Position numbers and translations under genes: made by a program | Shown: piece after piece, positions 7,174 to 38,750 of the stretch | Layout: every line of letters starts with the position of its first letter | How positions within the stretch are numbered: position 1 is the stretch's first letter | NCBI GenBank assembly: GCA_903933805.1 | Contig: CAIZLM010000077.1 | Span: 1-45,022 of the forward strand | From: an uncultured Bacteroidota bacterium | GTDB taxonomy: Bacteria > Bacteroidota > Bacteroidia > Chitinophagales > Saprospiraceae | Reading direction: 5' to 3' | DNA: 45,022 nt | The notes under the pieces: generated by a model | Seen by the model: the letters and a program-made list of their open reading frames with translations, nothing else | Database searches by the model: none | What the model was told of the DNA's origin: nothing

Positions 7174-7249
7174 TAACTGGTTAGATGACACGCTGGCTGG
7201 CCTAAAAGACCAACTTTTTTTGTCTCAGACGCGACCACGCTAACCAGTT
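7174..7249 (+). repeat. Dispersed palindromic repeat, short form (copy A1)
   Basis: About 76 bp, starting TAACTGGTTAGATGACACGC and ending GACCACGCTAACCAGTT. It contains the outer arms of the long element but lacks its inner arms and apex, so it folds as a short hairpin with a T-rich centre. It lies 5 bp from long copy A2 in the same orientation. Confidence 0.85.
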
Positions 7250-7254
7250 TTTTC

Positions 7255-7418
7255 GTAACTGATTAGGTGGCGCGCTGTCTGGCCTAAAAAGGCCCATTTT
7301 CCGCCATACTTCGCAGATTTTTTTGACCGTAGCGCTACTACGGCCTACAAAAATCCGCTTCGTCTGGCAAAAAATGGCCACTTTTTTTGTCTCAGACGCG
7401 ACCACGCTAATCAGTTAC
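7255..7418 (+). repeat. Dispersed palindromic repeat, long form (copy A2)
   Basis: 164 bp, starting GTAACTGATTAGGTGGCGCG and ending CCACGCTAATCAGTTAC. Left and right halves are nearly reverse complements, with apex CCGTAG-CGCTA-CTACGG. Both terminal repeats carry the matching change GATTAG/CTAATC (GGTTAG/CTAACC in other copies), a compensatory difference that supports base-pairing of the ends. It ends 24 bp before the GTG start of the next gene. Confidence 0.9.
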
Positions 7419-7442
7419 CTTTTTTCTTAAAAATCATCGCCG

Positions 7443-10400
7443 GTGAAACTCATCCCCTTGCTATCTGCCCTCTCCCTATTGTGCCTGCTGGCATCTTGCA
7501 CGGGTAAGCCCACGTTGTTTGTCTTACTCGACAACAAAAAAACCGGAATCACTTTCCGAAATGACATCAAAGAATCCGATTCCCTCAACATCCTAAACAA
7601 CGAATTTGTCTACAACGGCGGTGGCGTCGGGGTCGGCGATGTCAACGGTGACGGATTACCCGACCTGTACTTCACCGGAAATCAGGTGGAAAACAAACTC
7701 TACCTGAACCGTGGAAATTTACACTTTGAAGATGTCACACAACAATCCGGCGCCCAAAAAAAATCAGGGCAATGGTCCTCCGGTATCAACATGATCGACA
7801 TCAACCGCGACGGCCGTACCGACATCTACGTCTGCAATACCTTCCTTAAAAACCCCGAAAAAAGAAAAAATAACCTGTTCATCAACCAAGGCAATGGCCC
7901 TGACGGCATACCACAGTTTGTGGACATGGCCGCCGAATATGGCGTGGCCGATACCACCCACAGCAGCCACGCCCAATTTTTTGACAGCGACAATGATGGA
8001 GATCTTGACCTCTTTGTCGGTGTCAATGAAATGGATACCAAAATCCCCAATCGATACATCACAAAGGTGACGGATGGCACTTCGCGCAACTGCGACCGCC
8101 TATACCGCAACGACGGCGGTGCTTTCACCGATGTGTCCAGAAAAGCAGGAATCAATCTGGCGGGGTTCAGCCACTCAACACTGACCGCTGATTTCAACGC
8201 CGATGGCTGGCAAGACATCTACGTCGCCAATGATTATGTCAGCAATGACTTACTCTACATCAACAATCATAACGGCACTTTTTCAAATCAAATTGCCGGC
8301 ATTTTCAAACACCAAGCTGCTTCCGCAATGGGCAGTGACCTGGGTGATATCAACAACGATGGACTGCCCGACCTGTTTACAACAGAGATGTTGCCCTATT
8401 ACAACAAACGAAAAAAACTGTTCCTCGGTGGAAACAATTACGCCACCTATATCAACAATGACCAGTTCGGTTATGAATACCAATACGGCAGGAATGTGCT
8501 CCAACTCAACCGCGGTATCAACCCTGAAACAGGCCTGCCGGTATTCAGCGACGTCTCCTTTATCACCGGAACCCACGAAACAGAGTGGAGCTGGGCACCC
8601 CTGTTCGCTGATTTTGACAACGACGGACTGCGCGACCTTTTCGTTACCAATGGATTTCCAAAGGATGTAACAGACCACGACTTCTCTGCTTTTTTTAGCT
8701 CGAAACGGTATCTCGTAGCACCCATGGATTTACAGGAAGATATTCCACAGGTGAAAAGTCCGAAGTTTCTTTTCCACAACAACGGCGACCTGAAATTCGA
8801 TGACATCTCCGAAAATGCCGGTGTCAATTTGCCAGCCTTCTCCAACGGATCAATTTACGCAGACCTAGACCTAGACGGCGACCTGGACCTAGTGGTCAAC
8901 AATATTGACGACGAGGCGTTCGTATTCAAAAATACTCTGAATGACCGGGAAGAGAAACCCGATTATCTCCGTATTACGCTCGTTGGTCGACCCGAAAACC
9001 CGGATGCCATCGGCGCTGAGGTCATCGCCTATTACGGCGGAAAAAGTCAGCAGGCTGTCGTGATGTCCGGACGCGGTTATTTGTCTTGTCCCGAACGTAC
9101 CCTCCATTTCGGCCTCGGGAAAAATACGCCCGTGGACTCCATTGAAGTGCGTTGGGGTTGTGGTGAACGATCTGTCTTGAAACAACTCGCCCTCAATCAA
9201 ACACATACCATCCGATATACTGAGGTCGCCAAAAGCCCCTTGCTGTTAAAAAGCACCGAAATTACAACCCTACAACAACAAAATGCTGCCACCATAGGGC
9301 TGGATTTTGTGTCTGACGACAACGACTATGTTGACTTCAATGCGCAGCCTACCCTACCCCACAAGCTCAACCAGTTTGGACCAGGCATCACCGTGGGTGA
9401 TGTGACCGGCGATGGATTAGACGACCTTGTTATCCCGGGAAGTGCCCAACACGATGCCAGTTTGTTCACACAACACAACGATGGAACCTTCTCCAAACAG
9501 GCTTTAGACCTCAAAAAAGAACCTGGCAAAATGGAAGAAGACCTCGGCTCGTTGCTTTTCGATGCCGATGGCGATGGAGACCTAGATCTGTTCATTGCCC
9601 GGGGAAGCCCACAGCAATCAGCAGGTTGGTCGTATTACCAAGATGTACTGTTTACCAACGACGGTTCAGGCCATTTTACGGCAGCGCCACAAGCCTTGCC
9701 CCTGGAAAAAGCCTGTAACCAAGCCGCAAAAGCCGCTGATTTTGATGGCGATGGCGACCTGGACTTGTTTGTAGGCGGCCGGGTAATGCCCAAAAACTAC
9801 CCAAAACCCGACCAAAGTTTCCTGCTTCGCAACGATACCAAACGCGGTGGGCCACCCGTATTTACCGATGTTACTGCCCAATATTGTCCGGAGTTGTCGC
9901 TCATTGGCATGGTCAGCGATGCCATTTGGACAGATTTCAACCAAGACAACCGTCCCGATTTGTTGCTCGCCGGGGAGTGGATGCCACTCGTGTTCCTTCA
10001 AAATGACGGTCAAAAACTCGTGCGTTTGGCCCACCCGTTGACAACAAACGCAACCGGATGGTGGACAAGTCTTGCTGCCGCAGATTTTGACAACGATGGT
10101 GATACCGATTATCTCGCCGGCAACTACGGCCAAAACACCTACTTCCAAGGTGACGCCGACCTCCCACTGCACATTTACGCGAAGGATTTTGACAACAACG
10201 GGGTGTACGACCCCTTTATTTCCTGCTTCTGGCAAGACTCGCTGGGCAGAAAACGGGAATATTTCTACCATACCCGCGATGATATGCTCAAGCAACTCAT
10301 CACGATCCGCAAAAAATTTAACACGTATGGCCAATTCGGAGAAGCAACCGTACAAGATGTTTTTAGCAAAAAAGACCTCGAAGATGCTCAAATACTGGAA

Positions 10401-10985
10401 GCTAATTGGATGTCAACAAGTTATGTAGAGAATCTTGGCAATGGTACGTTTAAACTCACCCCACTACCCAACCCGGTACAATTGGCTCCGGTATTTGGAA
10501 TGCTGCCATTTGACTGCGATGCAGACGGCCTGACCGATGTCATCATGGTCGGGAACGATTACGGCATGGAACTGCTTCAGGGGCGTGCGGATGCCTTTTA
10601 TGGAATGGTACTGCACAACCTTGGGTCTGGGAATTTTCAACCGTTGGAGATTGGCAAAAGTGGTTTTGTTGTTCCAGGAGACGGGCGTTCGGTGACCCGC
10701 ATCTGCCTGGCGGGAGGCGCCTCTGCCATTGTGGCCACACAAAATGCCGGCGCCATGAAGGTATTTATCCCTTCCATGGCAAACGCCAAACAAACCATTC
10801 GATTGACCGAAAATGAAGTGTGGGCAGAGATATTGTTCCAACAAGGCCAACGACAACGACGCGAATTTTTTCGGGGAAATGGATTTCTTTCCCAAGAATC
10901 TCGTACCGTTCTACTGCCCAATGGCGTCCGGGAAATGGTTGTTTATGACGGGAAAGGCCGTGAGACCAGGCGCATAAAAGGTTGA
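7443..10985 (+). CDS. FG-GAP/VCBS-repeat and ASPIC/UnbV-domain lipoprotein (CRTAC1-like)
   Basis: 1180 aa, GTG start chosen because a lipoprotein signal follows directly (LLSALSLLCLLASC, Cys19). The protein is a chain of beta-propeller blades, each with a calcium-binding DxDxDG-type loop. About fourteen are visible, for example DVNGDGLPD, DINRDGRTD, DSDNDGDLD, DFNADGWQD, DINNDGLPD, DFDNDGLRD, DLDLDGDLD, DVTGDGLDD, DADGDGDLD, DFDGDGDLD, DFDNDGDTD and DCDADGLTD. An ASPIC/UnbV domain (LRITLVGRPENPDAIGAEV to HTIRYTE, about 509-594) separates two propeller halves. Such proteins are common beside SusC/SusD pairs in this group; their function is unproven, probably binding or adhesion on the cell surface. 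It may be co-transcribed with the two dehydrogenase genes downstream. Confidence 0.9.
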   Translation: MKLIPLLSALSLLCLLASCTGKPTLFVLLDNKKTGITFRNDIKESDSLNILNNEFVYNGGGVGVGDVNGDGLPDLYFTGNQVENKLYLNRGNLHFEDVTQQSGAQKKSGQWSSGINMIDINRDGRTDIYVCNTFLKNPEKRKNNLFINQGNGPDGIPQFVDMAAEYGVADTTHSSHAQFFDSDNDGDLDLFVGVNEMDTKIPNRYITKVTDGTSRNCDRLYRNDGGAFTDVSRKAGINLAGFSHSTLTADFNADGWQDIYVANDYVSNDLLYINNHNGTFSNQIAGIFKHQAASAMGSDLGDINNDGLPDLFTTEMLPYYNKRKKLFLGGNNYATYINNDQFGYEYQYGRNVLQLNRGINPETGLPVFSDVSFITGTHETEWSWAPLFADFDNDGLRDLFVTNGFPKDVTDHDFSAFFSSKRYLVAPMDLQEDIPQVKSPKFLFHNNGDLKFDDISENAGVNLPAFSNGSIYADLDLDGDLDLVVNNIDDEAFVFKNTLNDREEKPDYLRITLVGRPENPDAIGAEVIAYYGGKSQQAVVMSGRGYLSCPERTLHFGLGKNTPVDSIEVRWGCGERSVLKQLALNQTHTIRYTEVAKSPLLLKSTEITTLQQQNAATIGLDFVSDDNDYVDFNAQPTLPHKLNQFGPGITVGDVTGDGLDDLVIPGSAQHDASLFTQHNDGTFSKQALDLKKEPGKMEEDLGSLLFDADGDGDLDLFIARGSPQQSAGWSYYQDVLFTNDGSGHFTAAPQALPLEKACNQAAKAADFDGDGDLDLFVGGRVMPKNYPKPDQSFLLRNDTKRGGPPVFTDVTAQYCPELSLIGMVSDAIWTDFNQDNRPDLLLAGEWMPLVFLQNDGQKLVRLAHPLTTNATGWWTSLAAADFDNDGDTDYLAGNYGQNTYFQGDADLPLHIYAKDFDNNGVYDPFISCFWQDSLGRKREYFYHTRDDMLKQLITIRKKFNTYGQFGEATVQDVFSKKDLEDAQILEANWMSTSYVENLGNGTFKLTPLPNPVQLAPVFGMLPFDCDADGLTDVIMVGNDYGMELLQGRADAFYGMVLHNLGSGNFQPLEIGKSGFVVPGDGRSVTRICLAGGASAIVATQNAGAMKVFIPSMANAKQTIRLTENEVWAEILFQQGQRQRREFFRGNGFLSQESRTVLLPNGVREMVVYDGKGRETRRIKG

Positions 10986-10992
10986 ATATTTG

Positions 10993-11069
10993 CAACTGGT
11001 TGGGTGGAACGCTGTCAGGTCCAAAAAGGCCCATTTTTTGTCTCAGCAGCGACCACGCTATCCAGTTAC
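10993..11069 (+). repeat. Dispersed palindromic repeat, short form (copy B)
   Basis: 77 bp, from CAACTGGTTGGGTGGAACGC to CGACCACGCTATCCAGTTAC. The left arm runs as far as AAAAAGGCCCATTTT and joins directly to TTGTCTCAGC of the right arm, so the inner hairpin of the long form is missing. It lies between two co-oriented genes, 7 bp after one stop codon and 25 bp before the next start. Confidence 0.85.
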
Positions 11070-11070
11070 A

Positions 11071-11078
11071 TATTTTTG
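11071..11078 (+). promoter_or_regulatory. Possible -7 promoter box (TATTTTTG)
   Basis: Matches the Bacteroidota -7 consensus TAnnTTTG and lies 16 bp before the ATG at 11095, right after repeat copy B. No TTG was found at the -33 distance (that position falls inside the repeat), so this is a weak call. Confidence 0.3.
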
Positions 11079-11094
11079 ATAACTATACCATCTT

Positions 11095-11655
11095 ATGAAC
11101 AGACGAGAATCACTCCAACGCATTGCCCTCGTGCTCGGGGGAGTAGCCATAGCGCCTGATTTGCTGGCCCAAGCAATCGCAGGCCCGTCTGCTACACGTC
11201 AAAACACCCCCGAAGACCGACTTCATATCCTCGATGAAATGGCCGAAACCATCATTCCAACCACCGATACCCCCGGTGCAAAAGCGGCAAAGGTGGGCGA
11301 ATTTATTGTCCACGCCGTGGAATATTGCCTACCCAATGATCGGAAAAAACGTTTTTGGGATGACTTGGACGCGGCAGAAACAGCCTGCAAACGCCAAATG
11401 GGAAAGTCATTCACCTCGTGTTCCGACAATGAAAGAACCCGTTTCTTGCAACAATTACAAGCCCAAAAACACGCAAAAGGAGATGACCCAAGCGTGCCCA
11501 TGTTTTTTACCGCCCTTAAAATGCTGGTGTTACACGGGTACTTCACCGCTGAAATAGGCGCAACGCTGGCACTGAATTACGACCCGATTCCAGGAGGATG
11601 GATACCCGATATGCTCATTGAACCCGATACGAAAGCTTGGACACCACTGTTTTAA
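11095..11655 (+). CDS. Gluconate 2-dehydrogenase subunit 3 family protein (small subunit, Tat signal)
   Basis: 186 aa. The N-terminus MNRRESLQRIALVLGGVAIA is a twin-arginine-type signal (RR at 3-4 followed by a hydrophobic stretch), so it is likely exported folded. The rest fits the subunit-3 family: ILDEMAETIIPTTDTPGAKAAKV near the start, FFTALKMLVLHGYFTAEIGA and DPIPGGWIPD near the end. In characterised systems this small subunit forms a complex with a GMC-family flavoprotein and carries it through the Tat system, as in bacterial glucoside 3-dehydrogenase and FAD-glucose dehydrogenase. The GMC gene begins 21 bp downstream, supporting that partnership. Confidence 0.9.
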   Translation: MNRRESLQRIALVLGGVAIAPDLLAQAIAGPSATRQNTPEDRLHILDEMAETIIPTTDTPGAKAAKVGEFIVHAVEYCLPNDRKKRFWDDLDAAETACKRQMGKSFTSCSDNERTRFLQQLQAQKHAKGDDPSVPMFFTALKMLVLHGYFTAEIGATLALNYDPIPGGWIPDMLIEPDTKAWTPLF

Positions 11656-11676
11656 TCTTCTAAATCAACATAGACT

Positions 11677-13380
11677 GTGAACATCAACATAGACGCTCGA
11701 AAAAAAAGAACCTACGATGCCATCGTCATCGGATCCGGAATTTCCGGGGGCTGGTCGGCCAAAGAACTCTGTGAAAAAGGACTGAAAACGCTCGTCCTGG
11801 AGCGCGGCAACAAACTTGACCATATTTCCGACTACCATACCGCCTTAAAAGACCCTTGGGACCTCGAAAACCGAAACATGCAAACCGAAGACGACCGGAA
11901 TCAATACGCCATTCAGTCTCGTTGCTATGCTTTCAACGACGGCACACGCCACCTCTTTGTTCGTGATACCGACAACCCTTACGAACAAACAAAACCATTT
12001 GAGTGGATCCGTGGATACCACGTGGGCGGAAAAAGCCTGATGTGGGCGCGACAAACCTACCGGTGGTCTGACTTCGATTTTGAAGCCAACGCCCAAGACG
12101 GCCACGGCACCGATTGGCCAATACGCTATGCCGACCTGGCGCCTTGGTACAGCTACGTGGAGCGTTTCGTGGGTATCAGCGGCAACCCAGATGGGCTGCC
12201 ACAAATTCCAGACAGCGAATTCCTGCCAGCCATCGAACTGACGGCGGTAGAAAAACACCTGCAAAAAAGCATCAAAGACAACTACCCCGGCAGAACCCTG
12301 ATCAGCGGTCGTTGCGCCAACCTCACCGCACGCATAAACGACCGCGGACCTTGCCAATTCAGAAGTTTGTGCCACCGAGGCTGCCCTTTCAGTGCCGCAT
12401 TTGCAAGCCAGTCCGCCACACTACCCGCGGCGGCAGCCACCAAAAAAATGACGCTGCGCACCGACAGTATTGTCCATTCCATCCTCTACGATGAAAAAAA
12501 ACAACGCGCCACCGGTGTGCGGGTGATTGACGCCAATACCCGTGAAATGACCGAATATTACGCGAAAATCATTTTCGTCAACGCCGGCACTGTCAATACC
12601 ACGGCAATCCTGCTCAACTCTGAGTCAACCCGTTTCCCCAACGGGCTTGGCAACGACAGCGGTGTACTGGGGCACTACCTCATGGACCACTGTTACCGGG
12701 GCCGCGCATGGGCCACTTTTGACGGTTACGAAAATCATTACCACAAAGGCCGCCGGCCAACAGGATTTTACATCCCTCGGTTCCGGAACCTTTTGGGTGA
12801 CAAACAACAAAATTTTGTGCGCGGCTACTCCATCGGCGGTAGTTGCGAGCGCGGTGCCGCTTGGCAACAGGGCGCCTGGCAGGAAGGATTCGGCGCCGAT
12901 TTCAAAAAATCAATGACCCGGCCCGGACAGTGGGAATTGGGCCTGCACGCCCAAGGAGAGTGTCTCCCACATTTTGACAACAAACTGACCATCAATAAAA
13001 TAAAACTGGATGCATGGGGAATGCCCACAGTCAATTTTGACTGCCAATGGAGAGAAAACGAACTCGCAATGCTGAAAGATAGTTCCAATACCATGCAGGA
13101 AATGCTCGAAACAGCAGGTTTCAAAAATATCCAAATCAGTGACTCCCAGGAATCCCCCGGCAAAGGAATCCACGAAATGGGTACCGCCCGTATGGGCCGA
13201 GACCCCAAAACAAGCATGCTCAATGCCCACAATCAGCTGCACTCGGCGCCCAATGTCTTTGTCACAGACGGCGCCTGCATGGCCTCTACAGCCACCCAAA
13301 ATCCTTCCCTGACGTATATGGCCCTCACGGCCAGAGCAGCAGATTTTGCCGTCAAAGCACTCAACAAGCGGACGATTTAG
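11677..13380 (+). CDS. GMC-family FAD oxidoreductase with Cys cluster (glucoside 3-dehydrogenase-like)
   Basis: 567 aa, GTG start 21 bp after the small-subunit gene. The FAD-binding motif VIGSGISGG is at residues 18-25. The GMC stretch GYHVGGKSLMWARQTYRWS follows at about 113-131. Cys226-x5-Cys232-x3-Cys236 (GPCQFRSLCHRGCPF) matches the spacing of three of the cysteines of the [3Fe-4S]-type FAD-glucose dehydrogenases. Active-site His (GIHEMGTARMG) and Asn (TQNPSLTYMALT) are near the C-terminus. No own signal peptide is seen, so export would depend on the Tat-borne small subunit. Known relatives oxidise sugars or glycosides in the periplasm, passing electrons via the cluster to a cytochrome c; no cytochrome gene is in this window. 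The substrate is inferred, not shown. Confidence 0.85.
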   Translation: MNINIDARKKRTYDAIVIGSGISGGWSAKELCEKGLKTLVLERGNKLDHISDYHTALKDPWDLENRNMQTEDDRNQYAIQSRCYAFNDGTRHLFVRDTDNPYEQTKPFEWIRGYHVGGKSLMWARQTYRWSDFDFEANAQDGHGTDWPIRYADLAPWYSYVERFVGISGNPDGLPQIPDSEFLPAIELTAVEKHLQKSIKDNYPGRTLISGRCANLTARINDRGPCQFRSLCHRGCPFSAAFASQSATLPAAAATKKMTLRTDSIVHSILYDEKKQRATGVRVIDANTREMTEYYAKIIFVNAGTVNTTAILLNSESTRFPNGLGNDSGVLGHYLMDHCYRGRAWATFDGYENHYHKGRRPTGFYIPRFRNLLGDKQQNFVRGYSIGGSCERGAAWQQGAWQEGFGADFKKSMTRPGQWELGLHAQGECLPHFDNKLTINKIKLDAWGMPTVNFDCQWRENELAMLKDSSNTMQEMLETAGFKNIQISDSQESPGKGIHEMGTARMGRDPKTSMLNAHNQLHSAPNVFVTDGACMASTATQNPSLTYMALTARAADFAVKALNKRTI

Positions 13381-13389
13381 TCGCTAATT

Positions 13390-13424
13390 CATGGATACCA
13401 ACCCAGGCTGGGTTGGTATCCATG
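13390..13424 (+). terminator. Perfect 17-bp inverted repeat after the GMC gene
   Basis: CATGGATACCAACCCAG and CTGGGTTGGTATCCATG are separated by one base, 9 bases after the stop codon. This is a very stable hairpin without a T-run; probable transcript 3' end or stabiliser. Confidence 0.6.
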
Positions 13425-13441
13425 ACAACACCACAAGCACT

Positions 13442-13478
13442 ATGCCGGCGGACATCTCATGGCCGCCGGCATTATTTT
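13442..13478 (+). terminator. GC-rich hairpin followed by TATTTT
   Basis: ATGCCGGCGG (13442-13451) pairs perfectly with CCGCCGGCAT (13463-13472), followed by TATTTT. It is the second hairpin between the GMC and E1 genes. The ATG inside it (13459) opens the E1 reading frame early, but that start would lie in the hairpin and adds 67 residues without homology. Confidence 0.6.
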
Positions 13479-13515
13479 CCAAGCATATTTGCACCCATAT
13501 TTCCCGTTACCGGTT

Positions 13516-13540
13516 TTTCGCCTGACTTTTGCAGGCGAAA
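13516..13540 (+). other. Leader hairpin 3 before the E1 dehydrogenase
   Basis: TTTCGCCTG (13516-13524) and CAGGCGAAA (13532-13540) form a perfect 9-bp stem with loop ACTTTTG. It is not followed by T, so it looks like an RNA structure rather than a terminator. Confidence 0.45.
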
Positions 13541-13578
13541 TCACCGCACAGGGGTTTGGTGTCTCGATGGACCGTCTT

Positions 13579-13616
13579 ACAAGTCCACGGAAGGCATGTC
13601 CCCTTGGCCGACTTGT
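13579..13616 (+). other. Leader hairpin 4 before the E1 dehydrogenase
   Basis: ACAAGTC (13579-13585) pairs with GACTTGT (13610-13616), with a possible inner AAGG/CCTT stem. It ends 43 bases before the chosen start codon. Confidence 0.35.
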
Positions 13617-13659
13617 ATCAATAGCCCTTATCCCTTACCAAATATTCAAATTGTCCACC

Positions 13660-15744: not shown

Positions 15745-15786
15745 GTACAACTGGTTTGGTGGTCGCGTCTGATACAAAAAAAATCC
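15745..15786 (-). repeat. Half-copy of the dispersed intergenic repeat
   Basis: GTACAACTGGTTTGGTGGTC followed by GCGTCTGATACAAAAAAAATCC matches one outer arm of the long element (GTAACTGGTTAGCGTGGTCG, then CGTCTGAGACAAAAAA). It lies next to the nuclease stop codon at 15791. The partner arm is not recognisable. Confidence 0.55.
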
Positions 15787-15790
15787 GTTT

Positions 15791-17212
15791 TTACAACTCC
15801 ACTTCCTCCCCCAAAGCAGGTATACCAATGTTGGAAAATCCGTGTTCATGTAAGTACTGACGCCACTTTTCCTGGCGGTCGATGGTGCCATGCACCAGCC
15901 ACAATTGTTGGAGGGAGTTTTTCTGATGGGCAATAACTTCCAGCATCTCGCCGCGGTCGCCATGGGCAGAAAAAGAGTCCATCACAACAACATCGGCCAA
16001 CACTTGTCTGTATTGTCCCATGATGTGCAGGCTTTTCGCCCCTTCTCGGAGCCTTCCACCGGGTGTATTGGGGGTACAATAACCGACGATCAGGAATGTA
16101 TTGCGTTGATTTTCAATGTTGTTGAGCAGGTGATGCCGAATGCGTCCGGCGTTCATCATGCCCGAAGCGGCAATGATGATACAGGGCTTGTGCATGCTGT
16201 TGAGCTGTCTGGAGCCTTCCGAACCGCGGATGTAGTACAGGTTGTTGAACCCAAAAGGATTCTCATTATCGGCCATATACCGGTGCACCTGGCTGTCAAA
16301 ACATTCCGGGTGGTTGATGAAAATCTCTGTGGCATTCACCGCCAAAGGACTGTCCACATACACGGGTACCTGTGGCAATTTTCCGGCACTTTGAAGCTGG
16401 TCTAGCATGTACACAATTTCTTGGGTGCGCCCGACAGAAAAAGCAGGGATGATGACCTTGCCTTTTTTCTCCACACACGTATGCCGAATAACCTCCAAAA
16501 ACTCCTCCATTTCAGAAGGCGCCGATTCGTGATCCCGGTCTCCGTATGTGCTTTCGCAGATCAAATAATCCAACGGCGGCATGGGCAAAGGATCGCCCAA
16601 AATTGGACGATTGGGGCGGCCCAAGTCGCCCGTAAAGCCAAACATCACCGTTTTGTCACCTTGCTTTATTTCCAAGGTAACCGTGGCGCTGCCCAGAATA
16701 TGACCGGCATCGCGGAACATGACCCTCACATCGGGGTGTATGTGAAACCACTGCTCATAGTTATAACCCGCAAACAACCGCATGGCCATCTGTACATCCT
16801 CCACGGTATAAAGCGGCTCTACTTCGGGCTCATGGTCCTGTTTGTGCCTGTTTTGGTGGTCGGCATCTCCCTCCTGAATTTTTGCGCTGTCCAACAACAT
16901 GATGGAACAGAGGTCACGCGTGGCTTGCGTGGCATAAATTTTACCCTGAAAACCATTTTTGACCAACTTGGGCACCCGACCGGTATGGTCAATGTGCGCG
17001 TGGCTGAGTATTAGGCAATCAATGTCTTTGGGCTGAAATAGCCACTTTTCATTGAACCCAAACATGGGGTTTTCTGATCCACTCTGGCCATCGTCATCAC
17101 CGCCACCTTGGTACAAACCGCAATCGAGCAGTATCCGGTATCCATCATCCAAGGTAAGCAAGTGGGCACTACCAGTGACTTCTTGAGCGGCGCCGCAAAA
17201 TTTTATTTTCAT
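15791..17212 (-). CDS. MBL-fold beta-CASP RNase (CPSF-73-like exonuclease/endonuclease)
   Basis: 473 aa. The N-terminus MKIKFCGAAQEVTGSAHLL is typical. Metal-binding HxHxDH is seen as SHAHIDH (His71, His73, Asp75, His76). Further metal ligands are in DAGHILGSA and GFTGDLGRP. The beta-CASP insertion carries IIPAFSVGRTQEIVYML, IIIAASGMMNAGRIRHHL, DSFSAHGDRGEML and the terminal LVHG. The fold and motifs assign it to cytoplasmic RNA-processing nucleases of the archaeal/bacterial CPSF-73-like group; the exact RNA substrate is unknown. Residues 36-50 contain an acidic, glycine-rich insertion (GGGDDDGQSGSENP). It is transcribed alone or leads the leftward row, with 108 bp to the preceding gene. Confidence 0.92.
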   Translation of the reverse strand: MKIKFCGAAQEVTGSAHLLTLDDGYRILLDCGLYQGGGDDDGQSGSENPMFGFNEKWLFQPKDIDCLILSHAHIDHTGRVPKLVKNGFQGKIYATQATRDLCSIMLLDSAKIQEGDADHQNRHKQDHEPEVEPLYTVEDVQMAMRLFAGYNYEQWFHIHPDVRVMFRDAGHILGSATVTLEIKQGDKTVMFGFTGDLGRPNRPILGDPLPMPPLDYLICESTYGDRDHESAPSEMEEFLEVIRHTCVEKKGKVIIPAFSVGRTQEIVYMLDQLQSAGKLPQVPVYVDSPLAVNATEIFINHPECFDSQVHRYMADNENPFGFNNLYYIRGSEGSRQLNSMHKPCIIIAASGMMNAGRIRHHLLNNIENQRNTFLIVGYCTPNTPGGRLREGAKSLHIMGQYRQVLADVVVMDSFSAHGDRGEMLEVIAHQKNSLQQLWLVHGTIDRQEKWRQYLHEHGFSNIGIPALGEEVEL

Positions 17213-22927: not shown

Positions 22928-23090
22928 GTAACTGGTTAGGTGGCACGCTGTCTGGCCCAAAGAGGCCCATTTTCCGCCATACTTCGCAGATTTTTTTGAC
23001 CGTAGCGCTGCTACGGCCTACAAAAACCCGCTTCGTCTGGCAAAAAATGGCCTCTTTTTTGTCTCAGACGCGACCAAGCTAACCAGTTAC
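22928..23090 (+). repeat. Dispersed palindromic repeat, long form (copy C)
   Basis: 163 bp, from GTAACTGGTTAGGTGGCACG to CCAAGCTAACCAGTTAC, same orientation as A2. The halves pair almost throughout; the apex is CCGTAGC-GCT-GCTACGG. It lies between a possible promoter box (23117-23124) and the RNase start codon. Confidence 0.92.
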
Positions 23091-26851: not shown

Positions 26852-27015
26852 GTAACTGGTTAGCGTGGTCGCGTCTGAGACAAAAAATTTGGCCATTTTT
26901 TGCCAGACGAAGCGGATTTTTGTAGGCTGCAGCAGCGCTACGGTCAAAAAAATCTGCGAAGTATGACGGAAAATGGGCCTTTTTGGGCCAGACAGCGTGC
27001 CCCCTAACCAGTTAC
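26852..27015 (-). repeat. Dispersed palindromic repeat, long form (copy D, inverted)
   Basis: 164 bp, GTAACTGGTTAGCGTGGTCG at the left end and CCCCCTAACCAGTTAC at the right, the reverse orientation relative to copies A, B, C, E and F. The tip reads GGCTGCAGCAGCGCTACGG and pairs less well than in other copies. It sits between the divergent purL and msrA genes, so it is not downstream of either. Confidence 0.92.
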
Positions 27016-31725: not shown

Positions 31726-31733
31726 AAAACAAC

Positions 31734-31766: not shown

Positions 31767-31798
31767 CGGAATGAATATGAATTCAAAATTAAACCCTC

Positions 31799-31990: not shown

Positions 31991-32390
31991 TGTAAAAAAA
32001 GAAAAAAATGTGATGTGGCAATGCGCCAGTACAAAGGTACGCTGTTTTATCAAAAAAAATGGTTTTGCTTTTATTTTGAAAAAAAATAACATTTTGTCCA
32101 AAATGAGCAGAGGCCCTTCATCAACGGGTTTTTGTGTTAATGGCGGTTTATGTTGGCTGAATAGCACACGTTATACCAATCATAAAATAACGAATATCTT
32201 CATATTTTATGCTTAAAAACTCATCGTTTTACCCCATTATTGTTGGAATATTGACAATTTAGTTGTTGCTTTTCATGCTTACATTGGTATCTGACACATA
32301 ATTGTTGCCACTATTTTTTGCACTTTTTCCAACGCGATTTTATCAAAAGACGTACGACTGCCCCAAAAAAAGTCGATTTTTGCTGCTTAT
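31991..32390. promoter_or_regulatory. Divergent intergenic region, cold-shock gene / TIR gene
   Basis: 400 bp without a gene. On the minus strand TACCTTTG (32032-32039) fits the -7 consensus for the cold-shock gene. On the plus strand TATTTTTTG (near 32315) resembles a -7 box with one extra base, about 75 bp before the TIR start. Rich in A/T tracts. Nothing else was seen. Confidence 0.35.
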
Positions 32391-35300
32391 ATGAGCCACG
32401 CTGTCCATATTTTTATCTCCTACGACGCTGCCGACACGCGCAGCGCCCTCGACCTGCAGCGCCAGATTGGTCTGGCCTTGCAGCCAAGGGATACTGTTTT
32501 TTGGAACAGGGAACTTGTGCCCCCGGAAGCTTTTCGGGCACAAGCGCTTGCTTTCCTGGAACACACAGACCTCTTTGTGGCCATCCTTTCCATGAACTAC
32601 GAAGACACCCCCGATGTGCGGTGGGAAATGTCCACAGTACTGGATTTGCAGGACAACCGCCCCAACCTGCAAGTCCTGACTGTTCTGGCACGGGAATCCG
32701 TGGCACCTACCCTGCTTCGCACCTGTCAAACAGCGCTTCCAACACCTGAAAGTATTGAAAAACTTCCTGCCTACCGGGACCAACAACTTCGGCGCGCCGC
32801 TGAATCGGCTGTAGCCATACTGGAGGCCGCCCCCTTGGCCAATCGTATTCCCATCGGCGACATAGTGCTACCCTTCAGCATCGAAGCCCTCCGAGAGCGA
32901 TTGCTGGCGCAAACAGACCGTATCAACCACACACCCCTGTTGTCTTTGCTGAAACGCATCATCAAAGACGTGCCGGTAAAACGCGCGATACTCGATATCG
33001 AAGACGCCTATCGACAACTGCGGGAACAAACCAGGCTTTCCCAAGTCACCATCCAAGCGTTGCAACAGCAGTCAAAACCTATTCTCCAGGATTTGCAGTA
33101 CCTGCTGGAAAGGCTGGAAGAGCCCCAATTGGTGCCCGCGTGGCGCTCGGTTTTTATTCGAGACTATTATCACTTTACCCCAGAAAGCCGCGACGAAAGC
33201 TCCGTACCACCCTTTTTTGTGCCCACCGACGAAATTTATATTCCGGAGTCACTCCACAGACAAACGAATGGGTACGAACAAACCACGGCAGAAGCCTTCG
33301 AATCGCTTTCCTTTGAACAACAAAATGAGTTTCGACGCAGCTTGCTCCTCGCAAAAGATGCCCTGGCCGTAAATAATCCCGCACAAGCGTACGCCCACTG
33401 CGACCATGCGCGACAAAAAATTGATCCGCAATCGGCGCAGTTGTACGAGTACCTAATGATGACGTTTATCCAGAAAGAAACACCCTCGCGGATAATGGGA
33501 GAAGCATCAAAAGGCAATGACCGATTGTTACAGCACGTCTTGTTGTTTGCCAGCCGCCTCCGAGAACACCAAAACACAGGAAAGTGCCCTTCTAGTACGG
33601 CCCTCCACAACCTGGCCGTCGCCGCTGAAAGCCTCTCCGATGCAGCCCTAAGAACCTACTTCCACCTGCCCAACGATCCCATTCGGGATACCGGCAAACA
33701 CGCGGAAGCGGTGCCCGACCATCGGCCGTTGATTCGCTCGTTGTTGGGTTATACGCTGCAAGTGTGTCAACTGGTATATCCGGCAGAAGAGTTGCTGGAG
33801 GCTGCCGTTATCGAAAATTGCGGCGGTGGAAAATGCCACTGGGTAAAACGGGTAGAGGTGGTTGATCAAAATTTTCAATTTATTTCCGAAGGCCACCTCG
33901 ATGTGATCGGCGAAATCCAAGAATTGCTGGCCATGCTGCAAGGAATGGAAAGCAATGATCCCAATAAAATCGTCAAAGGGCGCGTCCTGTTGCGGGAAGA
34001 TTTGTATTTCAGCCTGTTGGCCAAACGCCAAACCCTCCACACACAACTGTTAGAGGACGCCAAACGAATGAGACCGTACACCGATGTGCGCAGTTCTATC
34101 ATTCGCTTTACCCATGCCTGTCTGCTGGGGGCACATGTCTTTGGCGATGAAGATGCGCTCGGAAAAGGCCATTCCTTCCTACGACTAGCCCTGGAATACT
34201 TGCTTCCGGGACTGCTCAACACACCGGCTGTGGTAGAAGCGGCAAGCATACCTTGGTTTACCTTGGATGAAAATGGCCGAGCAACAGCACATCCAGACTG
34301 CGCTGGCTACCATTTTGATGTCGCCGGTATTGTTGAAAAAATTGTGTTGGACCTAGCGGGACCTGCCGGCTGGAGCCATGTAGCACCCAATATCCAAGAG
34401 CGTATTTACCTACAATACGTTGCCGATACCGCGGTGCTGTACGAAAAAGTAAGAACCGGACTGACGCCAACCGATATCCGAAAAATGGACATAATGGACG
34501 CACGCAGGTTGCTCATAGCGTGTATCCATCGGTGGGTTGTCGCTTTCAAAGCCGATCCGGTACGCGGTGTTCCGTTGCTGGAAAATGGCATCCGGGAAAT
34601 GATCGGGGATGGCTTATTAATCTGGCTCCAACACGATCCCTACTCGTTGGTGGCCCATCCCGATAGTTTGGCCCAAGGCTTTGATGCCCCCGTTGCCCTA
34701 AAAAAAATCCATGACCTGCTCTTGTCCGCCCAACCAAACGCAAACACCGCCCATGAAACCTTTTTGAGTGGTCGAATTGCCACCAATTTGTTCGAAAAAA
34801 GAATACTCCCGACCTACCATGCCTGCCGAAAAGGGGATGAAAGCCAACGTGCCAACATCGCACTGCTGCTCCTGGAAACACTTCGAAACTATCAACTGCA
34901 CCCAGATATCAACTACCTCCACTTCGTGTGGCAAGAACTGACCGAAGAAATTAAATTGCCCTGGATTGACGTTGGAACAGATGGACAAGCGGTTGATTTC
35001 AAGCCCGTAAAAGGATTTGACCCCACGGTGGTCGTGCGGGAGATCAACACAACAGATCCAACAGTGTTTCGCCTGCTGGATGTTCGTACACGCATTGCCG
35101 ACCTTCGACACGCCGACCAAGTACGCCGTTATTTTCGTGAAATCAGCGAGTTTACCAACGAAAACAGACAAACAGAACGACAAATCGCCATTGAAATCAT
35201 CCAAAAAACAAAATGCATTTTCCGGTACTACCCCAAAGCAGCGTACCTGCAACTGGCTTGGGACGAACTACACGGAAAGCCTGGCAAACATCGTATTCGC

Positions 35301-35456
35301 TGGAATACCCGTTTCCTAGGTATTGTTCCCACCAACAACGACCATTACGAAAACCAATTCTTAAATTTTAATTACAAATACGAGCGATTCGAACTTCGTC
35401 GACTCCTCGACAATCAATTCAACGAAATGCAACGCGTCCTGTCCAGCCTTTCCTGA
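32391..35456 (+). CDS. TIR-domain protein with large unrecognised C-terminal region
   Basis: 1021 aa, no signal peptide. Residues 4-145 form a TIR domain: box 1 VHIFISYDAADTRSALDLQR, BB-loop region FWNRELVPPEAFRAQ, then LFVAILSMNYEDTPDVRWEM. Glu79 lies 12 residues after Ser67, the same offset as the catalytic Glu of NAD-cleaving TIR domains, so NADase activity is possible. The rest (about 150-1021) is mostly predicted helical and was not recognised: a coiled-coil-like part at about 205-245, a helical middle, and YNYKYERFELRRLLDNQFNEMQ at the end. No NB-ARC, TPR or STING domain was seen. TIR with a large sensor-like region resembles anti-phage or cell-death proteins, but that is inference. HAD and acyltransferase genes follow closely. 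Confidence 0.75.
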   Translation: MSHAVHIFISYDAADTRSALDLQRQIGLALQPRDTVFWNRELVPPEAFRAQALAFLEHTDLFVAILSMNYEDTPDVRWEMSTVLDLQDNRPNLQVLTVLARESVAPTLLRTCQTALPTPESIEKLPAYRDQQLRRAAESAVAILEAAPLANRIPIGDIVLPFSIEALRERLLAQTDRINHTPLLSLLKRIIKDVPVKRAILDIEDAYRQLREQTRLSQVTIQALQQQSKPILQDLQYLLERLEEPQLVPAWRSVFIRDYYHFTPESRDESSVPPFFVPTDEIYIPESLHRQTNGYEQTTAEAFESLSFEQQNEFRRSLLLAKDALAVNNPAQAYAHCDHARQKIDPQSAQLYEYLMMTFIQKETPSRIMGEASKGNDRLLQHVLLFASRLREHQNTGKCPSSTALHNLAVAAESLSDAALRTYFHLPNDPIRDTGKHAEAVPDHRPLIRSLLGYTLQVCQLVYPAEELLEAAVIENCGGGKCHWVKRVEVVDQNFQFISEGHLDVIGEIQELLAMLQGMESNDPNKIVKGRVLLREDLYFSLLAKRQTLHTQLLEDAKRMRPYTDVRSSIIRFTHACLLGAHVFGDEDALGKGHSFLRLALEYLLPGLLNTPAVVEAASIPWFTLDENGRATAHPDCAGYHFDVAGIVEKIVLDLAGPAGWSHVAPNIQERIYLQYVADTAVLYEKVRTGLTPTDIRKMDIMDARRLLIACIHRWVVAFKADPVRGVPLLENGIREMIGDGLLIWLQHDPYSLVAHPDSLAQGFDAPVALKKIHDLLLSAQPNANTAHETFLSGRIATNLFEKRILPTYHACRKGDESQRANIALLLLETLRNYQLHPDINYLHFVWQELTEEIKLPWIDVGTDGQAVDFKPVKGFDPTVVVREINTTDPTVFRLLDVRTRIADLRHADQVRRYFREISEFTNENRQTERQIAIEIIQKTKCIFRYYPKAAYLQLAWDELHGKPGKHRIRWNTRFLGIVPTNNDHYENQFLNFNYKYERFELRRLLDNQFNEMQRVLSSLS

Positions 35457-35487
35457 GGCATAAGATGCTGTTGAAAAAACAATCATC

Positions 35488-36117
35488 ATGACAAACATTA
35501 CCACCATTATTTTCGACCTCGGCGGGGTACTCATTGACTGGAATCCAGAGTACGTTTTCAAAGATGTCATTCCAGATGCCGAACGCAGGGCATTCTTTTT
35601 CCAAAATATTTGTACCCACGACTGGAACGTGGAACAGGATGCAGGTCGGCGAATTGCAGTAGCCACCGAAATACTGGTACAAGAACACCCAGCGTGGGAA
35701 GCAGAAATAAGAGACTATTATGGCCGATGGGAAGAAATGCTGGGTGGACCCATCCCCGAAACAGTGGCGCTGCTGCGCACTTTGCGCGACAAAGGGCAAC
35801 ATCGCCTGTTGGCGCTGACAAACTGGAGCAATGAAACTTTTCCAGTGGCGCTGGAGCGCTACGATTTTCTGCACTGGTTTGAGGGAATTGTCGTTTCTGG
35901 CGACGAAGGTACCCGCAAGCCGTTTCCAGACATCTATCAAATATTGCTGGACCGCTACCAAGTAAATCCAGAAGAGGCCGTATTTATTGACGACAGCCAC
36001 CACAATATTCTGGGTGCAGAAGCCCTGAAAATCAAGGGCATTCATTTTCTGAGTCCGTCCCAACTGCAGGATACCCTCCTGGCATGGGGAGTCCTGGACA
36101 CAACGCCCGAAGTATGA
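35488..36117 (+). CDS. HAD-superfamily (subclass IA) phosphatase
   Basis: 209 aa, cytoplasmic. Motif I IIFDLGGVLIDWN has the nucleophile Asp10 but Gly instead of the second Asp, as in YihX-type HAD phosphatases. Motif II LALTNWSNETF, the Lys of motif III in GTRKPFPDIYQ and motif IV VFIDDSHHNI are all present. A helical cap (about 15-90) is of type C1. Likely a small-molecule phosphatase (sugar phosphate or nucleotide), exact substrate unknown. It begins 31 bp after the TIR gene and its stop codon overlaps the start of the acyltransferase (ATGA), so the three genes probably share a transcript. Confidence 0.9.
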   Translation: MTNITTIIFDLGGVLIDWNPEYVFKDVIPDAERRAFFFQNICTHDWNVEQDAGRRIAVATEILVQEHPAWEAEIRDYYGRWEEMLGGPIPETVALLRTLRDKGQHRLLALTNWSNETFPVALERYDFLHWFEGIVVSGDEGTRKPFPDIYQILLDRYQVNPEEAVFIDDSHHNILGAEALKIKGIHFLSPSQLQDTLLAWGVLDTTPEV

Positions 36118-37190
36118 TACCACACGCGCAAATCGTCGGAACATCCACCCACCGCAACAGGTGGGTGGCCCTCGATTATTGGCGCGGTTTGATGGCCCTC
36201 GCAGTCATGACTTTTCACTTTGACAAATGGGCTTCGGGCGTTTGGGACGCTTCGACGGCACAAGGCAAACTGGGTGTATATGCCGTATCTGTTTTTTTCA
36301 TGCTGAGTGGAATGGCCCTGACAGAAACATACCAAAAATCACTACTACCCGATTGGAAATCGCTTTCCTCATACGCGCTCCGACGTGTTTGTAGGATATT
36401 TCCGCTGTTGTGGGCAGCAACCAGCTTGACACTCCTATTGGACGACGCACCGAGGAGTGGGCGCGAAATTTTTCTAAATTTTACAGGATTGTTCGGTTTT
36501 ATAGACCCTTCGAAAGACATCGCAACGGGCGCTTGGTCCATCGGTTGTGAATTGGTATTTTACGCATTCTTTCCGATTATACTGCTCGTGGGTCGAAAAA
36601 ACAGGTGGTTCATCCCTGCCTCCCTGGCGGTTGTGGCGTGTATTGGCATGATACGAGCCTTTGAAGGGCCCTTTGTACTTCATCCAGTGTCACAATCCCA
36701 GTGGTGGCCTTACTACGTGCAAGTGCCCAACCACGCCTTTTTTTTTGTGACAGGGATGGCTTTGTCGGCACACAGCAATTGGTTGCAACAAATACAAAAC
36801 TTCATCTGGCGGTTCTTACTGGTTGTGAGTGCCGCGGTATTTTTCTGGATGCCTGTCGGCAGCGATCCTGTGTATTTGGTCAGCGGCGGGCAGCGCGTGG
36901 TGCTTTCGGCGTTGGCTGTGCTGGCGACAACAGCCTGGAGTTTCGGTGTTACGACCTTGGCTGATATTCCACACCGGCTGTTTGTTTGGCTCGGGACCAT
37001 TTCCTATTCCATTTACCTGTTGCATCCCTTGGTCTATCGGGCGACAAAAGCCGTATTTACGCGGTTTGCCGATATTCCGACCTGGCTGCTACTGCCAACG
37101 GCCTGTGTCACAACACTGTTGGCTGGCCATATCGCGTACCACTGGTTTGAAAAACCAGCCATGCGGGTATCAAAACAAACGGCGCCATAA
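36114..37190 (+). CDS. Acyltransferase-3 family integral membrane protein
   Basis: 358 aa. ATG 36114 was chosen because it overlaps the HAD stop codon (ATGA), a usual sign of translational coupling; a start at 36084 would add ten residues. The family start RWVALDYWRGLMALAVMTFHFDKW contains the conserved His. SVFFMLSGMALTETYQKS, SYALRRVCRIFPLLW and ATGAWSIGCELVFYAFFP follow, then about eight more hydrophobic segments and the closing TISYSIYLLHPLVYRATK. Members O-acetylate sugars, peptidoglycan or lipids in the inner membrane. Substrate unknown. Confidence 0.9.
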   Translation: MIPHAQIVGTSTHRNRWVALDYWRGLMALAVMTFHFDKWASGVWDASTAQGKLGVYAVSVFFMLSGMALTETYQKSLLPDWKSLSSYALRRVCRIFPLLWAATSLTLLLDDAPRSGREIFLNFTGLFGFIDPSKDIATGAWSIGCELVFYAFFPIILLVGRKNRWFIPASLAVVACIGMIRAFEGPFVLHPVSQSQWWPYYVQVPNHAFFFVTGMALSAHSNWLQQIQNFIWRFLLVVSAAVFFWMPVGSDPVYLVSGGQRVVLSALAVLATTAWSFGVTTLADIPHRLFVWLGTISYSIYLLHPLVYRATKAVFTRFADIPTWLLLPTACVTTLLAGHIAYHWFEKPAMRVSKQTAP

Positions 37191-37213
37191 ATCACCCCAC
37201 CAAAAAACGCACG

Positions 37214-37241
37214 ATCCAAGGCATAACCAACAAACTTGGAT
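37214..37241. terminator. Weak hairpin between convergent genes
   Basis: ATCCAAG (37214-37220) and CTTGGAT (37235-37241) form a 7-bp stem in the 60-bp gap between the acyltransferase and panB stop codons. No T-run. Confidence 0.35.
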
Positions 37242-37250
37242 GGTGGCTAC

Positions 37251-38069
37251 TCAATACTGTTCCGAATCATTGGGAAAGTCCTTGGCCTTAACATCGGCGA
37301 TATAGCGTTGGGTAGCATCCGTCATCACGTCAAAAAGTTCTGCATACCGGCGTAAAAAACGCGGTTTAAAATCTTTGGTAATACCCAACATGTCATGTGT
37401 CACCAAAACCTGACCGTCGGCATGCTTGCCAGCACCAATGCCGATGGTGGGAATGGCAATGGCCGAAGACACCTCTTTGGTCAATTGTGCCGGAATTTTT
37501 TCCAGCACCAACGCAAAACAGCCTATTTCTTCCAGCAACCGCGCGTCATCCCGCAATTTCTGGGCTTCAACATCTTCCTTGGCACGAACGGTATATGTAC
37601 CAAATTTGTAAATACTCTGCGGCGTCAGTCCGAGGTGCCCCATAACAGGAATGCCGGCTAGAAGGATTCGTTTGATACAGTCTTCTACTTCAGCGCCACC
37701 CTCCAGTTTAACAGCATGGGCGCCCGACTCTTTCATGATGCGGATAGCACTCGATAAAGCTATTTCCGAATTCGACTGATAAGACCCGAAGGGCATATCC
37801 ACCACCACCATGGCACGGTGAACTGCCCTTACCACCGATTGAGCGTGGTAAATCATTTGGTCTAGGGTGATGGGCAGCGTCGTCTCGTGACCCGCCATGA
37901 CATTCGAGGCAGAGTCACCTACCAAGAGAATGTCTATGCCAGCGTCATCGAGGATGCGGGCCATCGAAAAATCGTAAGCGGTAAGCATGGCGATTTTTTC
38001 CCCGCGGTCTTTCATGGCCTGAATGACATGGGTTGTCACACGTTTGATTTCTCCCGTTGCTTTTGACAT
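37251..38069 (-). CDS. panB: 3-methyl-2-oxobutanoate hydroxymethyltransferase
   Basis: 272 aa, normal for PanB. It makes ketopantoate from 2-oxoisovalerate in pantothenate/CoA synthesis. Hallmarks: [99 protein letters not shown]. The metal- and substrate-binding Asp and Glu residues in these motifs are intact. No panC or panD is adjacent. The leader contains a terminator-like hairpin and repeat copy E. Confidence 0.97.
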
Positions 38070-38130
38070 GGTATGGTATATTGTTGGATCGAAAAGGTAG
38101 AATTGAGGGCGAAAGGTAGGCCCATAAAAG

Positions 38131-38164
38131 AAAAAAACTGCACCTAATGTAGGGCAGTTTTTTT
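38131..38164 (-). terminator. Terminator-like hairpin in the panB leader
   Basis: AAAAAAACTGC and GCAGTTTTTTT form an 11-bp stem with CCT/AGG extending it inside the loop. It has a U-rich end in either direction. On the minus strand it lies 62 bp before the panB start, so it could attenuate panB or end a short upstream transcript. Confidence 0.5.
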
Positions 38165-38211
38165 AAACAAATTATCATCGCATGACTATTGTTGTAAAAG
38201 CAGGTTAAATC

Positions 38212-38375
38212 GTAACTGGTTGGGTGGCACGCTGTCTGGCCCACAAAGACTCATTTTCCGCCATACTTCGCAGATTTTTTTGACCGTAGCGCTGGCTACG
38301 GCCTACAAAAATCCGCTTCGTCTGGCAAAAAATGGCCACGTTTTTGTCTCAGACGCGACCGCGCTAACCAGTAAC
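38212..38375 (+). repeat. Dispersed palindromic repeat, long form (copy E)
   Basis: 164 bp, from GTAACTGGTTGGGTGGCACG to GACCGCGCTAACCAGTAAC. Apex CCGTAGC-GCTG-GCTACGG differs in the loop from copies A2 and C while keeping the stem. It lies upstream of panB (143 bp) and downstream of the DUF4249 gene. Confidence 0.92.
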
Positions 38376-38383
38376 GATAAATC

Positions 38384-38435
38384 TTAGGTAAGCAAGCCCT
38401 CAACGTGATATTGAAGGTCTTGCGATCTCACCTAA
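38384..38435. other. Imperfect multi-segment stem-loop
   Basis: TTAGGT/ACCTAA, GCAAG/CTTGC and CCCTCAA/TTGAAGG are nested in order around a 7-base loop. It directly follows repeat copy E in a region with no gene. Possibly a small structured RNA or a decayed repeat. Confidence 0.35.
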
Positions 38436-38610
38436 AAATGTATAATCCCATGAACTTATCTCAGACGATGGTGCTTTCACCACCGCCGTTCACGCAACAA
38501 AAGTGATACATTAACCTGAATAATTCTAGGGAAATTTTTTAACAGTACTTTTACAAGGTAGGCGATATTAATCTATTTTACATTGTGTATTATATTGATT
38601 TTCAATAATT

Positions 38611-38644
38611 TAAGCCCCTATTTTTCGTAAAAAATAGGGGCTTA
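38611..38644. terminator. Long A/T-capped hairpin
   Basis: TAAGCCCCTATTTTT and AAAAATAGGGGCTTA form a perfect 15-bp stem around a 4-base loop. It lies 158 bp after the DUF4249 stop codon on the leftward strand, with repeat copy F between. There is no clean T-run after it on either strand. Confidence 0.5.
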
Positions 38645-38677
38645 AAAATTAAAAATTATGTATGATATTTTTTTATT

Positions 38678-38750
38678 GTAACTGTTTTGATGTACGTATC
38701 CGTCAATAAACGGCCATTTTTGTCTCATGCGTGTCCGCCCAAACAGGTAC
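38678..38750 (+). repeat. Dispersed palindromic repeat, degenerate short form (copy F)
   Basis: About 73 bp: GTAACTGTTTTGATGTACGT at the left, GTCTCATGCGTGTCCGCCCA then AACAGGTAC at the right, with GGCCATTTTTGTCTCA in the middle as in the short forms A1 and B. Clearly diverged. Confidence 0.6.

Follow-up and report, generated by a model that had tools for sequence, protein, structure and literature searches.

Miniature inverted-repeat transposable elements (MITEs) are usually viewed as stripped derivatives of one insertion sequence (IS), tied to the transposase of that IS, and it is usually their ends that are kept and their middles that are lost. This study concerns a family of hairpin elements of about 163 bp that is dispersed through a 45,022-nucleotide stretch of DNA (the window; contig CAIZLM010000077.1 of assembly GCA_903933805.1) from an uncultured bacterium of the Saprospiraceae, and through the rest of its genome. 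The reading that we consider best, with a probability of roughly 0.8, is that these elements are MITEs moved by an IS66-family transposase, which decay neutrally after insertion and belong to a superfamily with a constant core and differing ends. Here, what lasts is the middle, the total length and the spacing of A/T tracts in phase with the helix, while the ends change.

Among the described systems, Cardinium, itself a member of the Bacteroidota, provides one comparison. Its element MITECca01, of about 240 bp, has ends like those of ISCca4 (IS982 family) and is reported to be absent from other Cardinium strains (PMC9769881). It is a MITE whose ends resemble those of a resident IS and, unlike the hairpin family, it has no common core across transposase types. 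The Correia repeat enclosed elements of Neisseria combine short inverted repeats and a conserved core with more than 120 copies, often by genes, and can bind the DNA-bending protein IHF (PMC2649163, PMC10969869). By their description only, they work alike and share the feature of a conserved core, whereas they are not known to exchange ends, and the hairpin family varies in its ends and makes target duplications of two kinds. The ERIC and RU repeats of enterobacteria are short intergenic mobile repeats with a fixed length of 127 and 168 bp (PMC2759123). Set beside the hairpin elements by description only, they are alike in being short, intergenic, mobile and of fixed length, and unlike in that no end exchange is known for them. 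IS66 insertions are characterised by 8-bp repeats and ends beginning GTAAGCG (PMC11946415). We found no description of the hairpin family in full-text searches, mostly of non-subscription literature, on MITEs, IS66, palindromes and these bacteria; a family of bent palindromes of about 162 bases, with a constant middle and the ends of different transposons, in many related bacteria, is apparently undescribed.

Target duplications, copy number and the link to IS66

Judged by a single protein of the window, a peptidase S46 (identity up to 76% along almost all of its length), the closest named relatives of the genome are mostly Saprospiraceae MAGs, in line with its placement in that family. In the draft assembly (336 contigs, 4.2 Mb, completeness 97.4%), the right-arm pattern TTTGTCTCAGACGCGACC matched 676 times with at most two mismatches, against no match for the reversed pattern. 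A profile search of a 439,195-base sample (the window and 20 further stretches; each place entered once) located 86 element places, 62 of which had both ends with at most four mismatches each; these comprised 30 long copies (159–165 bp), 28 short copies (72–84 bp) and four of other lengths. The elements occupy 2.2% of the sample, which extrapolates to about 824 places in the genome. The preliminary description of the window had expected hundreds of copies per genome, as both figures indicate, and had named absence elsewhere in the genome as an outcome that would speak against it, which the 676 arm matches contradict. In the 297 other genomes of the family, the arm pattern gave one two-mismatch match in each of four genomes and none elsewhere, not exceeding the reversed control, and the nearest version outside this genome is a copy in the congener G332 with 87% identity (G and L numbers are our handles for genomes and loci).

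The repeated hairpins, which have no genes of their own, are transposition products: 10 of the 30 long copies are flanked by exact 8-bp duplications, against 0.4 expected with re-paired flanks. When one mismatch was allowed, this number rose to 14 (0.6 re-paired), and exact flank matches at 4, 6, 7, 9 and 10 bp were seen in 1, 0, 0, 0 and 0 of the long copies, respectively. Among the 28 short copies, five had exact 8-bp duplications (control 0.2) and eight had them with at most one mismatch (control 0.4). Duplications of 8 bp were exact in five of the eight copies with both flanks in the congener G318 and in two of four in G300. The element is bounded by 12-bp terminal inverted repeats, GTAACTGGTTAG/CTAACCAGTTAC, and it has the other properties of a MITE as well, being shorter than about 300 bp and free of a transposase gene (163 bp hold at most 54 codons), with a fixed 8-bp target duplication and a high copy number. 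At two loci (L048:1145-1478 and L045:9684-9934), neighbouring copies stand 8 bp apart and these 8 bp are the target duplication of one of them; new copies seem to have landed there beside old ones.

Repetitive extragenic palindromic (REP) elements and bacterial interspersed mosaic elements (BIMEs) are not known to make target duplications. A family of this type, moved by a REP-associated tyrosine transposase (RAYT; IS200-like), would likewise be palindromic, intergenic and present in hundreds of copies. However, the unit here measures 163 bp and not 20–40 bp, it makes 8-bp target duplications, and DDE-type IS66 elements carry the same ends, so that such an origin is very improbable, although no search for a RAYT gene was made.

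Matches to PF03050, the IS66 transposase family, were present in 11 of the 42 genomes of the genus. Among the loci retrieved, the PF03050 element of G311 (L082, 594–3723) begins and ends with GTAACTGGTTAG, is flanked by the exact duplication TTTTCAGA and is interrupted by two inserts that we take to be IS1-like; a shortened IS66 in G332 (L083) has the same ends and no exact duplication. In G323, an IS66 with a 475-codon frame and GTAAAAACTTAG ends shows exact 8-bp duplications at six of nine loci (L076, L080, L084–L090), and its ends match those of same-core hairpin elements in G300 and G301. The GTAACTATCCAG ends of an IS66 in the genome under study (L033, no duplication seen) match a hairpin element of G301. 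Three IS66 end types are each known with a transposase element and a hairpin element, which were found together in one genome only in G332, for GTAACT[G/T]G. We presume that the IS66 relatives concerned are the single-gene, ISBst12-like group.

The hairpin elements share with the IS66 family the GTAA-starting ends and the 8-bp duplications, and their 12-bp ends are identical on the congener PF03050 elements; the element is most likely an IS66-mobilised MITE. As only the terminal stretch is common to the element and IS66, the element is not a simple internal deletion of IS66. In the proposed mechanism, a transposase of the IS66 family, probably from its single-gene group, would recognise the 12-bp ends and move the 163-bp unit, with an 8-bp duplication as the result, and it would act in trans on these copies. 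The preliminary description had supposed that these miniature elements may be moved by an enzyme whose gene lies elsewhere, and had proposed to look for target-site duplications and for a transposase with the same ends. The target duplications, the IS66 elements with the same ends in congeners and the copy number all support that supposition; IS66 elements with these ends were found in G311 and G332, both damaged, and not among the PF03050 matches of this assembly.

Several of these observations count against mobilisation by IS66. The element ends begin GTAAC and have only GTAA in common with the published IS66 end; the hairpin element, which carries no gene, and the congener IS66 agree over the terminal 12–17 bp only; and both congener IS66 elements with an exact GTAACTGGTTAG end (L082 and L083) are damaged. 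In this draft assembly, no IS66 with GTAACTGGTTAG ends occurs among the three PF03050 matches, other transposase families not having been checked for these ends, and therefore an autonomous element with the same ends in the same genome, as a MITE should have, is missing among those matches. The three matches have GTAAGCCTCCC ends (L031), GTAACTATCCAG ends (L033) or are a fragment (L032). The IS66 elements of this genome were ruled out as the direct source, since their ends differ. By eye, a short element copy at L032:1221-1300 (G000 contig C186) contains a fragment of IS66 that has a GCAAGCCTCCC end and looks like an IS66 of a different end type inserted into the repeat.

Decay of the copies within the genome

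The median divergence from the consensus was 6% in long copies and 14% in short copies. Among the 30 long copies, pairs changed on both sides numbered 15 against 8.6 in shuffled data (reached in 5 of 500 shuffles), and six slid versions of the pairing gave 12–20. The covariation score was 0.092, against 0.077 shuffled (reached by 1 of 500) and 0.025–0.043 slid. For the same copies, RNAalifold predicted a weak, different structure and gave no covariation support (term +0.11), and their mean folding energy was −59.6, compared with −56.7 when the consensus was made to decay at random. At sites mismatched in the consensus, 35 changes restored pairing, against 23.5 expected (sd 3.8), and three of the 30 copies held blocks of at least three such changes inside 12 bases. 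In L054:13115-13277, L045:9422-9584 and L044:1962-2121, blocks of changes perfect the palindrome, as template switching in a hairpin would. The small excess of paired changes thus seems to stem in part from templated correction, the palindrome being imperfect.

Structural selection acting on every single copy was rejected as the leading explanation on the basis of RNAalifold, the pair counts and the random-decay simulation of the 30 long copies, although the shuffles show a small excess. The preliminary description had argued for selection on structure and had held that random differences between copies would count against it. Within the genome, such differences are largely what was found (near-random decay with a small paired excess), whereas between lineages the differences are not random and the structure is clearly conserved, as set out below. 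Once inserted, copies would decay neutrally.

Short copies have lost the core, which in long copies is flanked by the similar repeats CTGGCCCAAAAAGGCCCA and CTGGCAAAAAATGGCCAC; the left one is recognisable in 27 and the right one in 21 of the 30 long copies. In the proposed mechanism, recombination between these direct repeats of about 17 bp around the core would remove the central 85 bp from many copies and leave short copies of 78 bp. A simple motif rule assigned the 28 short-copy junctions to a mixed, left-to-right type (nine), a right type (eight), a left type (six) and other or unclear forms (five). Since the junctions vary, the core deletion probably happened many times independently. 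The nearest neighbour by arm sequence belonged to the same size class in 30 of 58 copies. A second mobile family made up of the short copies was disfavoured, as the junctions vary and the arm sequences mix.

A different explanation would make the elements host-useful RNA hairpins, that is, terminators, RNase III sites or mRNA stabilisers, which are retained site by site. Each element folds strongly, paired changes among copies are in small excess, and 77 of the 86 copies do not lie mostly within open reading frames of at least 100 codons, all of which would agree with such a role. However, structure is lost about as quickly as random mutation predicts, many copies are missing the core, and gene orientation shows no clear enrichment. 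The 74 intergenic copies with genes on both sides lie between 42 co-oriented, 18 convergent and 14 divergent pairs, where 42.8, 14.9 and 16.3 were expected by the number of gaps and 34.3, 20.4 and 19.4 by their length. There was accordingly no enrichment of convergent genes, as terminators would give (18 of 74 against 14.9 by count and 20.4 by length), and the orientations, being those expected by gap count, agree with the earlier remark that the elements are not simply terminators. An Rfam scan of the window gave no match at the gathering score, and a scan of four loci gave a single match, at 25.9 bits against a gathering score of 91. Taken together, we regard a retained RNA function as unlikely.

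Relatives with the same core and other ends

When the consensus was used to search the 42 genomes of the genus, it recovered diverged relatives, matching over the whole length in G318 (72%) and in the middle only in G300, G328, G208 and G301; when read out, these relatives were palindromes of 160–163 bp with differing ends. R1, a covariance model restricted to the core and built on 17 sequences of nine genomes (threshold E 0.001), matched 28 of the 42 genomes, nine of which had contributed sequences. At 24 of the 25 loci studied, a palindrome of 158–164 bp was delimited; the palindrome finder failed or chose another place at L161, L162, L165, L178 and L188, and L181 lacked a second end. Further end types were AGAGCATGTTGGGG, AGAGCTTGTTCAG, AGAAACTG, AGAAGTTG, TAAGTACC and TAGGCTCC. 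The family carries about ten end types overall, with several in one genome (three in G333 and two each in G301 and G305).

An alignment was made of 28 elements from 25 genomes, with L164 and L171 outside it, and L175, which has no left flank, was kept out of the duplication count. All 28 elements measure 160–164 bp and fold end to end (z −2.4 to −14.8), at a mean column identity of 63%. The covariation score between lineages was 0.362, whereas shuffling gave 0.138 and slid versions no more than 0.222, and the palindrome is kept between lineages through paired changes. Counted by cell, pairing reaches 82% at the ends and 84% in the tip stem; it falls to just 47% in the middle stem (helix 3), yet sequence blocks recur there. 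The recurring blocks of the core include ACTTCG on the left and GCCTCGTCTG on the right.

A second model (R2), built from the 28 elements and applied to the best seven to nine candidates per genome, matched 153 of 298 family genomes (three of which contributed sequences) in 78 of 112 genera, and 36 of 395 class genomes, this genome included, in 23 of 197 genera. A covariance model now exists for a repeat class that makes up about 2% of the sampled DNA here and is matched in about half of the family genomes sampled. Among 45 named loci, R2 matches with E below 1e-8 were L114 (JAJTFM010000046.1, two copies), L127 (JADLDL010000080.1) and L141 (JAHBTU010000006.1). Ends and lengths were taken from the palindrome and end motifs for the 28 elements and mostly from the model for 41 added elements of the family and class. 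In two genomes that are complete or nearly so, R2 matched every scored candidate, nine in G125 (4 contigs, 8.8 Mb) and seven in G646 (1 contig, 4.1 Mb).

The invariant positions of the family lie mostly in A/T tracts, which contain 10 of the 11 invariant columns of the 28-element alignment and are centred near positions 34, 44.5, 66, 97, 118 and 130 in most elements. In 25 elements, the spectrum of the tracts peaks at 10.5 bp, with a power of 3.27 against 0.95 (sd 0.16). A wedge model predicted stronger bending than in shuffles in most of the 25 elements (mean z −4.25).

The end types differ in their target duplications. None of 23 GA-ended elements has an 8-bp duplication, and a 3-bp TNA duplication fits 15 of the 23, compared with 7.5 re-paired. 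This points to a different transposase, and GA-type ends with TNA duplications would presumably fit the IS5 family. In the AGTACC group (TAAGTACC ends), a TA duplication fits nine of nine, but it is part of the inverted repeat and the control likewise gives 9.0; no duplication length is prominent in the AGACTTG group (three of nine at 3 bp, control 1.7). L260:2545-2706 of G311 is an element with the family core and AGACTTG ends (R2 E 2.6e-11) that R1 missed, and G311 holds both this element and, elsewhere, the IS66 with the ends of the window elements (L082). As a source of the other end types, the matches of the genus to the IS630-like PF13358 and the IS5-like PF13586 were considered and set aside, since no transposase was seen between such ends in the loci retrieved; one of these loci, L260, has an element of the family nearby.

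Based on these data, the elements are ordinary decaying MITEs within the genome; across lineages, the ends are replaced, whereas length, palindrome, tip and the phasing of the tracts are retained. In the proposed mechanism, the superfamily would extend through the Saprospiraceae and, more thinly, other Bacteroidia, keeping a length of about 162 bp, a full palindrome, a tip hairpin, core blocks and phased tracts, and its members would carry differing ends served by different transposases. How and why such a conserved bent-hairpin chassis would have changed transposases can be proposed as follows. The palindrome and the predicted bend may persist through an effect on transposition, by bringing the two ends together in the transposition complex or by raising the activity of source copies, and lineages may outlast the loss of one transposase by gaining the ends of another. 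We favour the view that selection for transposition acts on the source copies and that any transposase in use is aided by their bent palindromic middle. In its strongest form, this would be a curved palindrome of about 162 bp that is independent of any one transposase and persists in Bacteroidia by exchanging the ends of one transposase family for those of another, unrelated one (IS66, which makes 8-bp duplications; a family that duplicates TNA and is perhaps IS5-like; and a third, of the AGTACC type), the selected trait being bend and palindrome promoting synapsis; we advance this form tentatively, at slightly less than even odds. If true, a transposon parasite can outlive its transposase by a change of partner, and the mobility of a mini-transposon would depend in a testable way on its physical form (length, bend and palindrome).

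The main rival is a plain MITE family, in which the core reflects common ancestry and has no function, and the paired changes come from templated correction. The excess of pairing-restoring changes and their blocks in three of the 30 copies would follow from it, and end type does follow the core tree. On the other hand, a length of 160–164 bp is held in 28 elements despite their sequence divergence, nearly all invariant columns fall in A/T tracts, which are phased, and the ends change between lineages while the middle stays, the opposite of usual MITEs. This rival is possible, though we think it the less probable account. In another explanation, the core would be a separate element or docking site that receives the ends of different transposons, comparable with the stem-loop-replacing transposition proposed for IS1272 (PMC5678879). 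An identical core beneath different ends would be expected from it, whereas the IS1272 model removes a stem-loop that is kept here, and the ends are placed symmetrically at a nearly constant total length; we consider this explanation improbable.

A number of findings weigh against a conserved core with exchanged ends. When 29 cores were placed in a tree, the end types fell into compact groups, and nine changes for ten types are the minimum; the exceptions are G318 (GTAACTGG), whose position next to GTAAAAAC elements is strongly supported, and the AGACTTG group, which is also split. Since end type follows the core tree, end changes are real but rare. No GA or AGTACC ends flank a transposase among the fetched PF13358 (30) and PF13586 (27) loci of the genus, and the excess of TNA duplications in GA-ended elements is modest. 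The paired change between lineages could come partly from templated correction, and one element outside the alignment (L164) measures 158 bp. For six of the 25 elements, the wedge model predicts hardly any additional curvature (z above −2). As the elements are related, the phasing of their tracts is in part inherited and the 25 are not independent observations. Finally, the E-values of R1 and R2 are rough, and specificity is gauged only by the 359 of 395 class genomes without an R2 match.

Copies in the window

The window contains four long copies, whose coordinates, ends, arms and tip are as the preliminary description gave them, and all of them match R2. The copy at 22928..23090 (plus strand, 163 bp) has an exact 8-bp target duplication, GGCTGAAA, and folds along its entire length with an energy of −68.1 kcal/mol (z −6.8 relative to 200 shuffled versions). 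The other three measure 164 bp. The copy at 7255..7418 (plus strand; R2 E 4.6e-25) has the flanks GTTTTTTC and CTTTTTTC, matching at seven of eight positions, as do GTTAAATC and GATAAATC around the copy at 38212..38375 (plus strand). The copy at 26852..27015 (minus strand) has the minus-strand flanks GTAAAAAC and GTAAAACA, with six of eight matching.

Two short copies on the plus strand are missing the core. The one at 7173..7251 (79 bp), immediately upstream of the long copy at 7255, has a mixed-type deletion junction and no 8-bp duplication (five mismatches), and that at 10992..11069 (78 bp) has a left-repeat-type junction and flanks matching at five of eight positions. A right-arm fragment lies at 15749..15792 (minus strand), and a degenerate short copy at about 38678..38750 (plus strand) was spotted by eye and is absent from the profile matches at E 1e-3. 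Elsewhere in the window, positions 32391-35456 encode a protein of 1021 residues with a TIR domain at the N-terminus and no further Pfam match at E 0.001, and a pair of a TonB-dependent receptor and a SusD-family protein, at 1949-7031, lies upstream of the first element cluster.

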